Below are positions 4,506-45,382 of a stretch of 45,382 nucleotides of DNA, one piece after another. A program made the translations under genes and the position numbers. Within the stretch, counting starts at the first letter, position 1, and each line of letters begins with the position of its first letter. The DNA is from a virus. The stretch spans positions 1 through 45,382 of IMG/VR virus record IMGVR_UViG_3300042691_006622. One strand, written 5' to 3'. The notes under the pieces were generated by a model that ran no database searches, was not told the origin of the DNA, and saw nothing but the letters and a program-made list of their open reading frames with translations.

Positions 4506-4772
4506 TTAAGCAGTTTGGTAGTACAGAAATTCTTGGACCGTCATAGATCCTTTGGCCTGGTTACAAGAACGACAGGCGGTTACACAATTAGTGGCAGATG
4601 TCTCACCCCCCTTGCTGCGGGGGCGGACATGATCAATCGTCAAATTGGCGGTAGAACCGCAATAAACGCAGCGATTGTTGTCCCGAAGTTTGATCTCATC
4701 TCTCCACATCCGCTTTGCATCAGAGCTGCGAAACGTGAGGAGGTCATGCATGAGGCTTCGGGGAGTGTCCAT
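4506..4772 (-). CDS. HNH endonuclease
   Basis: 88 aa. It has the compact HNH fold signature: CxxC at C35/C38, the catalytic DH pair at D47/H48, Asn at N62, and the second CxxC at C67/C70 followed by N71, which together form the zinc site and beta-beta-alpha-metal nuclease. Free-standing HNH enzymes beside terminase genes are common and are needed for packaging-linked cleavage in some phages, but can also be homing enzymes. It lies between the small basic protein and the 76-aa protein, with the large terminase two genes further on. Confidence 0.88.
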   Translation of the reverse strand: MDTPRSLMHDLLTFRSSDAKRMWRDEIKLRDNNRCVYCGSTANLTIDHVRPRSKGGETSATNCVTACRSCNQAKGSMTVQEFLYYQTA

Positions 4773-6302: not shown

Positions 6303-6503
6303 CTAATCTTGGCAAGACCTCTCGATAAGATAGGCAAGAAGATTGCTTAGGCTTCGACCTTCTTGGTCGGAACGCTTAATAAGTTTTTGATGCAGCGCCC
6401 AGTTCATCGTGATAGTTACACGCTGAGAGCTGCGGTGAAAGTGAGGCACAAGGTCTGCAGAGCTTGCCTCGAATGGCTGTTGCCGGTTGAATCGGTCCAT
6501 CAT
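6303..6503 (-). CDS. ribbon-helix-helix (CopG/Arc-like) DNA-binding protein
   Basis: 66 aa. From residue about 28 the pattern RVTITMNWALHQKLIKRSDQ then EGRSLSNLLAYLIERS matches a ribbon-helix-helix domain: a short beta strand with alternating polar residues, helix A, a G-R-S-x-S-N turn and helix B. Such dimers bind operators in the major groove. Two tandem ATGs (6503 and 6500) are possible starts. A 38-bp element shared with the leader of the second integrase lies 17 nt upstream, so autoregulation together with control of that integrase is a reasonable hypothesis. Confidence 0.75.
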   Translation of the reverse strand: MMDRFNRQQPFEASSADLVPHFHRSSQRVTITMNWALHQKLIKRSDQEGRSLSNLLAYLIERSCQD

Positions 6504-6587
6504 CCTGTGTAAGCAGGGTGGTCACGGGGTCGGCTGTTGACGCAGCGCGGCCCCACCAATGTGCTAGCACAGAACAGGGGTAAATAG
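6504..6587 (-). promoter_or_regulatory. leader of the RHH gene
   Basis: 84 nt without a gene between the 101-aa protein and the RHH gene. It is dominated by the 38-bp element at 6520-6557, flanked by an imperfect GTGCTAGCAC palindrome (6561-6570). Confidence 0.5.
6520..6557 (-). repeat. 38-bp shared leader element, RHH copy
   Basis: On the minus strand it begins GGTGGGG, contains GCGCTGCG and CAACAGCC, and ends CCCGTGACC, 17 nt before the RHH start. It matches the element at 7830-7867 at 30 of 38 ungapped positions by eye. Both copies lie the same way and at similar distance upstream of a start codon, as expected for promoters or operators. Confidence 0.65.
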
Positions 6588-6893
6588 CTACCAGGGCACC
6601 CCAGCAGCCTTAGTCGGCTGCCGCTGCTCATCAAGCTGGGCCTGAAGAGCAGCTTCAATCTCAGCGACTTTTTCACCAGTCAGTTGGTGCTGCAGCCAAG
6701 AAACAACCAGCTCTTCTGTCAAGTCCGAAAAAGGAATCAGTTCCCCCTCAGGTCGCTCAAGACCAATAGAGCCATAGGCACCAGCAGAATAGGTGTCGTC
6801 CTTAGCATCCACAGTGTAGTGGACAGTGTACACATAACCATCAGCAGTTTCCCGCTCAAGGTTGGCGACTTTCCAGGTAAAAGTGGTGGACAT
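6588..6893 (-). CDS. 101-aa conserved phage protein (DUF7936-like)
   Basis: The N-terminus FTWKVANLERETADGYVYTV and the C-terminus VAEIEAALQAQLDEQ...PTKAAGVPW match a small soluble protein that I recall from many marine phages and cyanophages, with a beta-rich N-terminal half and a helical C-terminus ending in a conserved GxPW. Its function is unknown to me; in other phages it often lies near tail or lysis genes. It sits between the second integrase and the RHH gene and starts shortly after the integrase stop (22-nt gap). Confidence 0.75.
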   Translation of the reverse strand: MSTTFTWKVANLERETADGYVYTVHYTVDAKDDTYSAGAYGSIGLERPEGELIPFSDLTEELVVSWLQHQLTGEKVAEIEAALQAQLDEQRQPTKAAGVPW

Positions 6894-6915
6894 AAGTAAG
6901 GTGTGTGGTTAGAGA

Positions 6916-7809
6916 TTAAATGACGGGTACTTCGTACTCAGTTGTTGTTCCTGCATAATGTTTCCAGATCACTTCACTGGTATTACCAGCCCATTGAGCA
7001 GCCTGGGAGACAGGAATGCCAGCCTCTAACCAACGACTGATGGCAACGTGTCGGAGGTCGTAGGGGCGGTATCGTTTCTCGATGAAACCAGCACTATGCA
7101 ACTCATGCATACGCTGGGAGAAGAACGACTGGAAGGCAAGCCGATTCCAGGGGAAGATGTATTCAGTATCCCTAGGAAGATCAGCAAGGATATCAACTGA
7201 GCGTGTGTTCAGCGGAACCCAACGCTGTTTATTTGTTTTAGTACTGTCCTTATGACCATGCGTCAAGGTGTAATTACTGTGTACCAAGAGACGGTTATCT
7301 TTAATATCCGACCACTTAGCAGCACGAACTTCACCAGTCCGCATGGCCGTTTGCAGCATAAATTCAGCAAACAAAGACCAGTCAACTGACCGATAAGTCA
7401 GCTTTGCACTCAATGCAGTTAATACAAGTGGGATCTCGTGACGTGGAATTACGGTAATGTCGCAGCTCTTTTGAGGAGCCTTAGGCATCCTGAAGTTGGC
7501 TACGGGGTTACCTTGAAGTAATCCAATGTCATCGGAGGAAGCCCACTTGTACATACTGCGGACGTACATGCAAACCCGCCGTGCAGACAAGACTGGCTTC
7601 TGCTGGAGCAGCCAGATAAGAACCTGTCGACCCTGCTTCAGATCCTGAACAGGGCAGCGGTTTAACCACTTGGTTACCTGGCGGTAATCAGAGGTCAGGC
7701 TCGTCGGACAAAGCGAGATGCTGCGCTCCTGGAGAAACATGTCCCACACTCTTGAAACAGTGTGAACATCAACGGGCGCAACGGTTTGTGAGCAATAAGC
7801 TTGAGGCAT
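6916..7809 (-). CDS. int: divergent tyrosine recombinase (second integrase)
   Basis: 297 aa from the ATG at 7809; a GTG at 7866 would add 19 residues but would swallow the shared leader element. The core domain has the first catalytic Arg in MRTGEVRAAKW, a beta-hairpin Lys region (HKDSTKTNKQRWVPLN), box II YDLRH, and the nucleophile Tyr in KHYAG. The usual HxLR His is Tyr (RPYDLRH), and the LGH histidine is replaced by Asn (WAGNTSEVIWKHYAG); I recall the GN form from cyanobacterial integrases, so activity is still likely. The N-terminal core-binding domain spans about 15-100. It shows little resemblance to the integrase at 38448. A site-specific integration or element-specific function is likely. 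Confidence 0.88.
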   Translation of the reverse strand: MPQAYCSQTVAPVDVHTVSRVWDMFLQERSISLCPTSLTSDYRQVTKWLNRCPVQDLKQGRQVLIWLLQQKPVLSARRVCMYVRSMYKWASSDDIGLLQGNPVANFRMPKAPQKSCDITVIPRHEIPLVLTALSAKLTYRSVDWSLFAEFMLQTAMRTGEVRAAKWSDIKDNRLLVHSNYTLTHGHKDSTKTNKQRWVPLNTRSVDILADLPRDTEYIFPWNRLAFQSFFSQRMHELHSAGFIEKRYRPYDLRHVAISRWLEAGIPVSQAAQWAGNTSEVIWKHYAGTTTEYEVPVI

Positions 7810-7829
7810 CGGTCCATTAGTGGTGGATC

Positions 7830-7867
7830 GGTCACGGGTCAGGCAGTTGGCGCTGCGCTGGCCCACC
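7830..7867 (-). repeat. 38-bp shared leader element, integrase copy
   Basis: On the minus strand it begins GGTGGGCC, contains GCGCAGCG and CAACTGCC, and ends CCCGTGACC, 20 nt before the ATG at 7809. See 6520-6557 for the partner. The conserved right half (CCCGTGACC) is the best candidate for a recognition core. Confidence 0.65.
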
Positions 7868-7903
7868 CAAACTTATAACACACTGAGGCGAGCAGTGCGT
7901 TGC

Positions 7904-8183: not shown

Positions 8184-8202
8184 AGGTGTCTAGAGAGTAG
8201 GA

Positions 8203-11200
8203 CTACGAGGCTTGGAGTTGAGCCTTGACTTCGGCCATCTCCGTCTCCAGTTGCTCGATTCGCTCCATCGCTTCCTGCAGCGCCTTCACTGCCTTCATGT
8301 AAAGAACCGAATACTGCACCGCTTTGGTGTTAGTACCGAGATCGTTTCCTTCAGCATCGCGGTCGGGGCTTTCGTAGACCAAGCCAGGAGAGATGGGCTC
8401 CACCTCCTGTGCAACAAGACCGATCTGGCGGTGAGTTTGGCCTTCCTTCAGATTGTAGTTGCGAACTCGCAGAGCTTTGATGTCAGCCCATTGAGAACCA
8501 GCATCCACAATGTTTTCTTTTAACTTAATGTCTGATAGTGCCGTGTAGGAATTGTTTGTATTTTGAACGTTGCCATTTGAGAAAACTTTGTATGAAGTTG
8601 TTCCTGTTGATATGCCGGTAGAGGAGTGTTGTCCAATAAATATCTCTTGAGTGGTGCCCGCTGCAGCAGAAATACTACAGGCGTACCCAGCGGATGTTGA
8701 ATATTGATAGGTAAGACCGTTATTCGTAATCCTCATCCTCTCCGTCGGGCTGCTCGCTCCATCGGCGGTAGTGGAGAACGTTAATCTCCCTGGGTAGTCA
8801 TTAGTTCCAGTTACGCCGTCTGTTTCAGCTTTGATTACAGCAAATAAATTGGAATTGCTTGCTTGATCAGTAAATCTAATTTCACCAAGGGTTCCATTGG
8901 CTGCAAAGCCGGAGTTTGCATTACCGTTGTATGCAATTTGGAACTGCGTAACAGGGCTTGAGTTTGATGCGCCTTGAACAATTAAACGTGCAACTGAGCC
9001 AGACCCATCAGACGTGCCAACTAAAAGGCGGCCAGAGGTGTCGATTCGTGCTCGTTCAGTGTTATTGGTTTGGAAATTAAGCGAGTGATTTGTTTGCGTG
9101 CCAATCCATCCGCCACTGGATGCAGCAAGCATCTCCATGTTTACGGAATTGGTTGTGTCTGCGGCTCTTATGTAAGCCGTTCCTGCAGTCGCTACTTCAA
9201 GCTGTCTATTAGGGCTAGTAGTGCCAATCCCTACGCGCTGTGACGTGTCGATTGTGATAGCTCGTGCGTTGTTAGAGCCCAGTAATAACGATCTACCTGA
9301 TCCAGCGCTAATTGCGAAATCAGTTCCAAGTGCCCAGTTAAAGGCGCCAACGGATAACCACCCAGCTTCGTTTGCTCCTGCAGCGGTTCGGAAATTTAAA
9401 GTTCCATCTAAGTTTGAGCCACCTGTACGAATGGCTCCATTTACATCTAGTAAATACCCGGGGCTACTAGTCCCCAGACCTACCCGTCCACTGGAGTCGA
9501 TAACAAGGCTGTTTGCCGATGCGCTGGGGTTGACGCTAACTGCAGGAGATGTGCCAGCAGTTCCTCCGCCTTTGATTTCAAATGTGCCATCCGCACGAAT
9601 TCTTAATCGCTCGGCAATAGAACCGCTACCAGAAGAATTATAAAATATTCCGAGTCCACTGCCATCCAAATACCAAGCAGAGGACCCAGACGTGGCGTCA
9701 AACTTTGCATTTGAGCCAGTGGAACTCAAATAATGGTTTGATCCAGTGAGAAGATACGTGCCGCCGCCATCAAAATAAGCAGAAATAGCAGCATCTTTAT
9801 CGTTGCTTGGGTGCTGAATCCGAAGACGAGGTGTATTTGAATTAGCGCCAAGGATGCTTAATTTGCCATCTGGTGCAGCACCGACTCCAACATTTCCACT
9901 TGAATCAATAAACAATGCGCCAGTGCCATTAGTTGAGATGGCTACGTTGTTTGCCGAAGGCAGATAAACCCCGTTGCTGGGGGCGGTGCTGCTGCTGGGG
10001 ATAAAGCTGGCGGCGGTGCTGGTGCCAGTGGTCGTGGTGTTCTGGCTGCCAAAGTCCGGGCTGATCTTGGTGCCAGCAATGGCGGCAGAGGCGTTGATGT
10101 CGGCGTTGACCAGGGTGCCGTCAGCAACCATGGCCGATGTCACCGTGCCGGTGTCGCCAACAGTGACGACGTTGTTGCCGCCCTTGGTCAGTGCACCAGC
10201 AACGGACACGCTGCCCGAGCTGTCAATCGTCAGCCGTGCGGTGCCGCCTGTGATCAGAGCCAGCTCATCGACACCTGGACGGCCAATACCAGTGTTGGGA
10301 TCGCCGTCGAAGGCGTAGCCAGGCGTTGCGGCAGAAGTGCTGTCATCAGCCTTGATCTGCCCAGTAAGCGTCCCGCCGGTCAGCTTCAAGTAGCGGGAGT
10401 CGGAGTTATTGGCGTAGTAGTTCAGCCAGTTCCAGGTGGTGCCAGCGGTCGTGTAGCGCAGTCGCACCGACAGGCCTGAGTCGCCTACAAAACCAGCAGG
10501 CATCCCGGCCAGCGGGGTGAAGCTCTCCAAGCCAGTGGAGTCCTGGATCTCAATATAAGTGTCGTTAGCAGGGCTAGCCGGAATTGCTGCTACGTTAGCC
10601 TTGAGCTGATAGTTAATACTGTTCGAAACAGCAGCAATAGCTTGATCCGCTTTTGAGTTAGCGGTGTTTGCTGTAACCACCGCAGAGTTAGCTGTGGTTG
10701 TAGCAGAGTTGGCAGTCGAAACTGCGCTATTAGCTGAGTTTACAGCGTTAGTAGCATTACTGCTAGCCGTGTTGGCAGTACTTACAGCCGAAGATGCGTT
10801 GGAAGAAGCTGTATTGGCGGTAGAAACAGCAGATGCTGCCTGCGAAGAAGCGTTGTTTGCGGTAGTGGTGGCCGCATTAGCCGTGCTGAGGGCAGTGTTG
10901 GCCGTGGTGACAGCCGTAGTGGCGTTCGATGATGCAGTATTGGCAGTAGAAACGGCAGAAGCTGCAGTCGCAGAAGCAGCATTAGCTGTGTTTACAGCCG
11001 TTGTTGCATTGGCAGAGGCTGTATTAGCAGTACTTACGGCTGAAGATGCATTAGACGAGGCAGTGTTCGCCGTAGAGACTGCAGCCGCTGAGTTTGTAAG
11101 TGCTGTATTAGCAGTTGTAGTTGCCGAAGATGCCGTATTACGGGACTCTTGGGTAACGTACAGGTTCTGAGTAAAGTTGTTATTCAGATCCTGACTACGA

Positions 11201-38447: not shown

Positions 38448-39290
38448 TCAGAGGGATCTAATCGCGCTGCGACAGGCCCGATCTGTGGGCTTCACATAAT
38501 TCAATGAAGTCTCCACGTCGGCATGGCCCATCAGTTCCATGATCGTGCGCGGGGAGGAGTTCTCCCCCAGCCAGGTCCCGAAGGAGTGGCGCAGGGAGTG
38601 CCAGACGTAGTCCTCCCCAAATCCACAGAAGTTACGAACCTTTACGAACGCTCGGAAGAGCTGATCTTTGTTAGTCCAGTCGTCTCGAAACAAGTACGTC
38701 TGTCCTAATCGGTTCTGCAAGACCCCGTGGATCTTTTCGTGGATGTCAATGGCTCGCACGTTGCGGCCTTTGGTCTCGCGCCCAGGTTTGCCCCCGACCC
38801 ACAGCACGTTGGCCGAAAAGTCGAGGTCTTCTGATTTGAGCTTGAGCAGCTCCCCTTGGCGCACCCCGGTGTAGGCGCTGACGATCAGGGCATCGGCCAG
38901 GTCTTGACGGTCGAAGACATCGACCGAGACAAACACCATCCGAGCCACCTCCTCTTTTGAGAAGTAGGTCATCCGGCATTGGCCCTCCTTGAGGCGGACC
39001 ACCCTTGGCCAAGTGACATTGTGTTCTTCAGCCTCCCGAGTCCAGTTGATCGCCGTTGATCCCACCGAGATAATCCGGTTGATCGTTGCGTTCGACAGGT
39101 GTTGCCCCTGAAGGTCCGAGATGAACTCATGCCACCACCCGACCTTTGCCATTCTGGCGAGTGGAAGTGAGCGGCCAGCGTATTTGGTGATGTGGCCGGC
39201 ATTGATGGAGTTCGTCTTGGCCGAAGCCAGACGTTTCCACTTGGTTCTCCAGGTGTAGTCGAAGGCTTGGCCCCAGGTGTAGGTGCTCAT
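38448..39290 (-). CDS. int: tyrosine-family integrase with complete catalytic set
   Basis: 280 aa. Catalytic motifs: Arg in AYTGVRQGELLKL, Lys region GGKPGRETKGRN, box II HSLRHSFGTWL (His, Arg), LMGHADVETSLNY (His, and the nucleophile Tyr). The N-terminal 90 residues are the SAM-like core-binding domain. It should recombine the adjacent tRNA-Leu fragment with the host gene. Its ATG overlaps the MarR-like stop as ATGA, so both are made together. The gene lies just after RNA polymerase, as in other integrase-bearing cyanopodoviruses. Confidence 0.95.
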   Translation of the reverse strand: MSTYTWGQAFDYTWRTKWKRLASAKTNSINAGHITKYAGRSLPLARMAKVGWWHEFISDLQGQHLSNATINRIISVGSTAINWTREAEEHNVTWPRVVRLKEGQCRMTYFSKEEVARMVFVSVDVFDRQDLADALIVSAYTGVRQGELLKLKSEDLDFSANVLWVGGKPGRETKGRNVRAIDIHEKIHGVLQNRLGQTYLFRDDWTNKDQLFRAFVKVRNFCGFGEDYVWHSLRHSFGTWLGENSSPRTIMELMGHADVETSLNYVKPTDRACRSAIRSL

Positions 39291-39760
39291 GTGTCGTCTC
39301 CAGCGGTGATGAAGTCACGAGCTGAGGCCTCAAATGAAGCAATGCTCATGGACATGTGCTGTTCGATGAGGTTGGCAAACTGTTGCCCCTTAGGCGTGAG
39401 GAACAATCTCCATTTTTTGTAGTCAGCTGCATCACGCTCACGCCGAACAAGTTTGAGACCTTGCCGGTGTTCAAGACGGTGATGACTGCCGAGCCAGCTG
39501 ATGTTTCGACTGACTGCCGAAGCAGACAATTTGGTGAAAGCCACCACTTCCTCTTGCAGGCAGCCGTCATGGCTGGCCACATAGAAGAAGCAACTGGCCA
39601 GCTGGAGGGGGAATTCCTTCTCGCCCGTTGAGCGGAGGATTTCCATGATCAGGTAGCAGCGGTAACAGGCCTCTGAGGTCAGCTTCAAGGGCTCGTCTGG
39701 GGCTGGTACCCGGAGCATAGCCGCAGCTTTGAAGGGGGGAGGCTTACAAGCTAAAACCAT
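39287..39760 (-). CDS. MarR-like winged-helix regulator
   Basis: 157 aa from the ATG at 39760. The winged-helix core is about residues 45-125: QLASCFFYVASHDGCLQEEV, then FTKLSASAVSRNISWLGSHH as recognition helix and the wing GLKLVRRERDAADYKKWRLF, then LTPKGQQFANLIEQHMS. 'D-x-R ... LT-x-K-G' is the MarR wing end. It probably dimerises and controls the int module or early promoters; ligand unknown. Coupling to int by ATGA suggests a role in the lysogeny decision. Confidence 0.78.
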   Translation of the reverse strand: MVLACKPPPFKAAAMLRVPAPDEPLKLTSEACYRCYLIMEILRSTGEKEFPLQLASCFFYVASHDGCLQEEVVAFTKLSASAVSRNISWLGSHHRLEHRQGLKLVRRERDAADYKKWRLFLTPKGQQFANLIEQHMSMSIASFEASARDFITAGDDT

Positions 39761-39794
39761 GATTAACCTGAGACACAACCTAAGACTAGTTGGT

Positions 39795-45330: not shown

Positions 45331-45382
45331 CGCATTTGGCGCTATCCCTTTGGAAATTTGTGGCAAAATACTCAGACCTTCT
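45331..45382. repeat. 52-bp terminal direct repeat, right copy
   Basis: Identical to 1-52; see the left copy. Confidence 0.9.

Follow-up and report, generated by a model that had tools for sequence, protein, structure and literature searches.

The window, the complete 45,382-nucleotide stretch of viral DNA analyzed here (IMG/VR record IMGVR_UViG_3300042691_006622), has a 52-bp sequence repeated directly at its two ends (1-52 = 45331-45382) and carries genes for two tyrosine integrases, a T7-like RNA polymerase and a T7-type terminase. This gene set, the terminal repeat and a resemblance to Synechococcus phage records make a T7-like cyanopodovirus its most likely identity. Two similar blocks lie on its minus strand, one in the leader of a ribbon-helix-helix (RHH) gene and the other in that of an integrase gene.

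6520-6557, minus strand: RHH block, GGTGGGGCCGCGCTGCGTCAACAGCCGACCCCGTGACC
7830-7867, minus strand: integrase block, GGTGGGCCAGCGCAGCGCCAACTGCCTGACCCGTGACC

The initial annotation described an ungapped match at 30 of 38 positions with both blocks in the same orientation, and this is reproduced. The distances of 17 and 20 nt that it gave to the start codons (RHH ATG 6501-6503; integrase ATG 7807-7809) are correct, and we agree that the intervening gene (101 aa, DUF7936) contains no copy. These blocks are the only non-coding pair in the window that match at this level; the offsets with better scores trace to the terminal repeat and to repeated coding sequence at ~10.8 kb. When the window was shuffled six times with dinucleotides preserved, no offset gave at least 30 matches in 38. 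When the genome-wide search that had been proposed was performed with a covariance model, exactly two copies were found in the window, at 56.3 and 54.0 bits, with the next match at 13.8. The match is real, chance being excluded by the shuffles and the covariance model scores.

Each block forms a hairpin (P1) interrupted by a single bulged base, and the differences between the copies mostly preserve base pairing; the initial annotation noted neither. A second hairpin (P2) lies between P1 and the start codon. The two leaders contain the following features, those on the plus strand belonging to a predicted antisense RNA.

7872-7877 (TG 7879-7880), minus strand: sense extended -10 box TGtTATAAG for the integrase mRNA, from the sequence and the class PWM
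7836-7864, plus strand: P1 of the integrase copy, predicted antisense RNA hairpin GGGTCAGGCAG-TTGGCG-CTGC-G-CTGGCCC with a bulged G, from covariation and folding
7808-7832, plus strand: P2 of the integrase copy, predicted 11-bp antisense hairpin over the start codon and ribosome-binding region
7796-7801, plus strand: antisense -10 box TAAGCT, within integrase codons 3-5
6916-7809, minus strand: tyrosine integrase, 297 aa, putatively regulated gene (PF00589, 52.9 bits)
6561-6566, minus strand: sense extended -10 box TGcTAGCAC for the RHH mRNA, from the sequence
6526-6554, plus strand: P1 of the RHH copy, predicted antisense hairpin GGGGTCGGCTG-TTGACG-CAGC-G-CGGCCCC
6500-6521, plus strand: P2 of the RHH copy, predicted 9-bp antisense hairpin over the start codon
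6498-6503, plus strand: weak candidate antisense -10 box CATCAT of the RHH copy (alternative TTGAAT, 6487-6492)
6303-6503, minus strand: RHH protein, 66 aa, putatively regulated gene (PF07878, 29.1 bits; phrog_582 Arc-like repressor)

The antisense RNA of the integrase copy would start near 7808. The antisense -10 box of the RHH copy is weaker than in most other leaders. Elsewhere in the window, the other integrase (38448-39778) overlaps a MarR-like regulator gene and lacks the element, as does a small HNH-type ORF (4506-4772, 88 aa, by inspection). Seven imperfect copies of a repeat in a 42-bp register occupy 10724-11143, inside a 1080-aa ORF near the tail genes.

Distribution of the leader element

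The element lies 5' of the integrase in 39 of 71 viral contigs with integrase relatives (one of the 39 being weak), and of seven contigs that encode an RHH relative, five have it 5' of that gene. Conservation before orthologues while the flanks diverge had been put forward as a check; comparing the integrase leader of the window with 26 orthologue leaders, P1 is 88% identical and the upstream flank 26%, which equals random. The hairpin-core pattern CAGCGNNGCGNCAACNNCCTG matched at least 120 stretches, many of them having matching flanking stems and a start codon ~21-32 nt downstream. The leader is present in more than 100 virus contigs, including the isolates S-CBP1 and S-CBP3, with one to four copies per record. 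Absent elsewhere in the window and conserved before orthologues, the element thus appears to be the real conserved regulatory feature that was initially proposed.

The genes downstream fall into unrelated groups, named by inspection of their sequences except where Pfam is cited. There are 33 distinct integrases, HNH endonucleases (17 + 15 and singles), small MTQEDY proteins (11 + 5 + 3), ten RHH genes and one gene with a GIY-YIG-like end. A reading of the element as an att site for integrases only was dropped in the face of this diversity. The cultured phages S-CBP1 and S-CBP3 have one copy each, 5' of an RHH ORF of ~63 aa that is unannotated in GenBank (KC310802, about 45647-45885, and KC310803, about 8188-8426, both minus strand; loci L203 and L204). 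Four copies of the module with differing loops and stems lie on the minus strand of an 18,982-bp virus contig (L225; near 1401, 4210, 8242 and 18053), several of them immediately 5' of HNH-type endonuclease ORFs. Unrelated small proteins (for example in L144, L112, L161 and L164) share an MTQEDY-like N-terminus together with the leader. At such loci it is as if leader and first codons moved as one unit.

A strict pattern search of 84,980 prokaryote species genomes gave 13 matches, none of them cyanobacterial, and the element is therefore largely viral. Only one of the 13 is leader-like, in a Gemmataceae MAG (L210:7042-7070), where a perfect P1 lies in a leader-like context before a 148-aa ORF and a sense -10 box is not evident. 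The element did not score convincingly at HNH homologues from phages of Xanthomonas, Klebsiella, Vibrio and E. coli, nor in eight further cyanophage records. Neither the window nor ten element loci matched Rfam at gathering and E-value thresholds, and we did not find the element described in the papers covered, which are part of the literature.

The folded strand and the flanking promoter boxes

P1 comprises a 7-bp outer stem with CAG/CTG beside the bulge, one bulged C, a 4-bp inner stem and a loop that is usually CGNCAA. In the gene-strand alignment 92.9% of cells are paired, with two-sided changes in 90 cells compared with 21.7 in shuffles. Both sides have changed in seven of the 11 pairs, and the covariation score was reached by none of 500 shuffles. 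The searches seeded with P1 imposed its core; they left free the outer stem, the inner pairs that vary, P2 and the -10 boxes. Since the loop varies (CGNCAA, CTGCAA, TTGCAC, TTGCAG, CTTNCAA and others), the most constant part is the CAG-bulge-G/C-CTG core. The YUNR loop motif, tried as an explanation of the P1 loop, fits only part of the loops. In one lineage the antisense loop TTGNCG resembles a -35 box whose promoter would point still further outward; at L235:5972-6001 (minus strand) the loop TTGTCG together with TATAGT would form an outward-facing sigma-70-like promoter. The loop variants break the -35-like TTGNCG. Pairings between loop and linker and between GGT and ACC exhibited no covariation by eye.

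The exceptions to Watson-Crick pairing indicate which strand is folded. In 54 leaders with coding starts less than 67% identical, the outer stem read on the gene strand has 337 Watson-Crick cells, 34 A.C, six other and one G.U, and the inner stem is Watson-Crick in all 213 cells. G.U should be the favored exception in an mRNA, so the common A.C and near-absent G.U disfavor pairing in the mRNA. On the antisense strand the A.C cells become G.U, and pairing rises from 92.9 to 98.2%. Loci fetched once this idea existed provided 16 distinct leaders, with nine A.C and no G.U.

P2 was judged by folding, as a MAFFT alignment of whole antisense RNAs misplaced its 5' arm. A stem of at least 4 bp is found in 73% of 59 distinct linkers, compared with 15% of shuffles. 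The P2 region is steadier on the antisense strand in all 53 leaders, with means of -9.9 and -4.2 kcal/mol on antisense and gene strands. The corresponding mean z values are -2.16 and -0.22, against -0.15 and 0.04 for 300 control ORFs, and 131 of 490 antisense P2 pairs are G.U. For the window's own leaders, the folding energies of antisense RNA and mRNA leader are -31.3 and -19.4 kcal/mol for the integrase and -32.3 and -21.0 kcal/mol for RHH. The evidence says that the selected pairing is on the strand opposite the gene, and the antisense-specific folding of P1 and P2 points to a structured antisense RNA overlapping the ribosome-binding region.

We find -10 boxes on both strands, scored by E. 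coli-like frequencies, with start codons picked by ORF length. Of 53 leaders, 81% have a sense -10 box (PWM >2.5) immediately before P1, compared with 17% in an upstream control window, and in 18 of the 53 it is extended (TGn). On the opposite strand, 87% of 53 distinct genes have a -10 box within ORF nt 4-14, compared with 18% of 1236 control ORFs, and there is no enrichment at nt 25-35. In a window set from P1 it is present in 94% of leaders and 39% of controls, mostly 28-36 nt beyond P1. Its distance from P1 is 32.7 ± 3.0 nt (control spread 7.5). The longer the distance from P1 to the ATG, the lower the position of the box in the ORF (r = -0.71), which thus tracks P1 better than the start codon. 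Ten out of ten new leaders fetched once the idea existed contain the antisense box. No -35 consensus emerged across the leaders on the antisense strand, and a strict sigma-70 scan found no promoter in the window region.

The antisense box is also seen in codon choice. With tyrosine at codon 5 or 6, its invariant T is the third codon position. Third-base A occurs at the invariant position in 29 of 30 genes (9.6 expected), across eight amino acids (E, Q, K, A, R, G, P and S), and in a second register in 16 of 16 (5.7 expected); one control codon per register (codon 7; codon 3) is likewise A-rich, and the nominal P values are too small, the sequences being related. The -10 enrichment, the fixed distance to P1 and the synonymous constraint together argue for an opposite-strand promoter aimed at the target leader. 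In ten of 54 leaders antisense P1 is followed by a U-run (at least five T in eight); in picocyanobacterial-type phages, including that of the window, it is followed by ACC with no U-run.

Alternative explanations of the element

The initial annotation suggested either two phage promoters or a private regulon, with the RHH protein controlling itself and the integrase. The first idea survives in that a promoter-like -10 box lies directly upstream of each copy. Promoters for a phage RNA polymerase do not fit, however, as a T7-like enzyme was found in three of 22 carriers and not in the other 19 (several records may be fragments), and each record has no more than four copies. The regulon is not private, the same module preceding HNH endonucleases, MTQEDY proteins and integrases in many contigs. 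RHH genes are indeed among the element-bearing classes, S-CBP1 and S-CBP3 included, but RHH_5 exceeds the cut-off in only four of 19 element-bearing records (five when one weak hit is counted). Moreover the stems are arbitrary and covary freely, indicating intrastrand pairing and not a fixed operator sequence. We therefore regard an RHH operator as highly improbable.

Could the hairpins function in the mRNA, P1 as a 5'-terminal stem-loop that is bound by a protein or protects against RNase E, and P2 by hiding the Shine-Dalgarno sequence? P1 does lie at the inferred 5' end of the mRNA, its bulged C, CAG/CTG and loop are conserved, and most leaders can form 4-bp P2 stems on the gene strand. Yet the A.C and G.U counts run the wrong way for that strand, on which the P2 region is barely steadier than shuffled sequence, and the antisense -10 box and synonymous constraint would be left unexplained; we consider this unlikely. 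The strand polarity would equally fit G.T pairs in a single-stranded hairpin of template DNA, recognized, for instance, by a hairpin-dependent RNA polymerase or a recombinase in the manner of attC, REP or N4 promoters. With DNA parameters the template form is the steadier in 48 of 50 distinct P1 sequences, and integrases are frequent downstream. Against this, the element is fixed 21-32 nt 5' of start codons with an antisense -10 box at a fixed distance, occurs as single copies rather than paired ends, often precedes genes other than integrases, and occurs, among the 22 carriers, mostly in ones that show no T7-like polymerase. A DNA hairpin is thus quite improbable.

A predicted antisense RNA and comparable systems

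In our view each block is probably part of a convergent-promoter module, in which an mRNA starting at P1 would be opposed by an antisense RNA of ~56 nt that should repress translation of the gene. The parts are defined by sequence statistics: the gene-strand extended -10 box, P1, P2 and the opposite-strand -10 box in the first codons. Each block would be the 5' half of this compact module. The gene-strand promoter would generate an mRNA beginning at P1, and the opposite promoter an antisense RNA running from about the start codon to the end of P1 and containing P2 and P1. In some lineages P1 and the U-run would act as its intrinsic terminator. Fully complementary to the mRNA leader, the antisense RNA would pair with it and hide the ribosome-binding region. 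Integrase, HNH endonuclease and similar accessory proteins would thereby be kept scarce, with an effect that grows with the number of phage genome copies. The differing P1 and P2 sequences within one genome would restrict each antisense RNA to its own target. In the window the predicted cognate duplexes (-129 to -136 kcal/mol) are far stronger than the non-cognate (-62 to -72 kcal/mol), so the differences between the blocks would keep the structure and reduce cross-talk.

More tentatively, and at slightly less than even odds, this may be a portable antisense-RNA brake. Promoter, P1, P2 and a counter-promoter within the initial codons would form a single module that has spread among unrelated phage genes, each copy having stems re-tuned for specificity, and that serves as a copy-number-sensing limiter of DNA-cutting and accessory genes. 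Its scope would be integrases, HNH endonucleases, RHH regulators and small proteins. If so, many cyanophages would control integration and gene-homing enzymes through antisense RNAs overlapping the start codon. Such a regulatory layer escapes genome annotation and would constrain the opening codons of the proteins. This would offer a testable account of the scarcity of integrases and selfish endonucleases in phages of abundant aquatic cyanobacteria, and S-CBP1 and S-CBP3 with their host Synechococcus CB0101 permit testing of the antisense model.

CopG is an RHH protein. The 48-nt antisense RNAII of pMV158 represses translation and acts beside the repressor CopG, and its hairpin, with an 8-bp stem, 1-nt bulge and 6-nt loop, doubles as a terminator (PMC4485353). 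This hairpin closely resembles P1. RNAII combines one hairpin with an unpaired 5' tail, whereas the 5' part of the phage element is hairpin P2; and unlike in pMV158 there is no replication gene, and an RHH gene is usually absent. In the RNA-OUT - RNA-IN system of IS10/Tn10, convergent promoters give a 69-nt antisense RNA against the transposase initiation region, which blocks ribosome binding more strongly as copy number rises (PMC5006887). The phage module is similar in its predicted convergent promoters and in a predicted antisense RNA that would pair where translation of a DNA-transaction enzyme begins. RNA-OUT serves a single transposase and its overlap is just 35 nt, whereas here the predicted overlap is ~56 nt with two hairpins, the module is common to unrelated genes, and repression is predicted. 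It is from RNA-OUT (PMC5006887) and RNAII (PMC4485353) that we infer repression of translation.

SymR/symE, a type I toxin-antitoxin system, likewise directs a cis-encoded antisense RNA against a potentially harmful protein (PMC1891008), but is a single bacterial locus under LexA control, with no known sequence relation to the phage element. In cyanophage S-PM2 the antisense RNA CfrI is linked to psbA and located between it and a homing endonuclease gene (Millard 2010, as described in PMC12197685). It too adjoins a homing endonuclease gene, but it is not a start-codon leader module common to many genes. The cyanophage cis-regulatory RNAs wcaG, manA and glnA, conserved structured RNAs that PMC12197685 also names, are other families. 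Our best reading is that the element is a variant of the cis-encoded antisense RNA type represented by RNA-OUT and RNAII, and that this explanation of the blocks is new.
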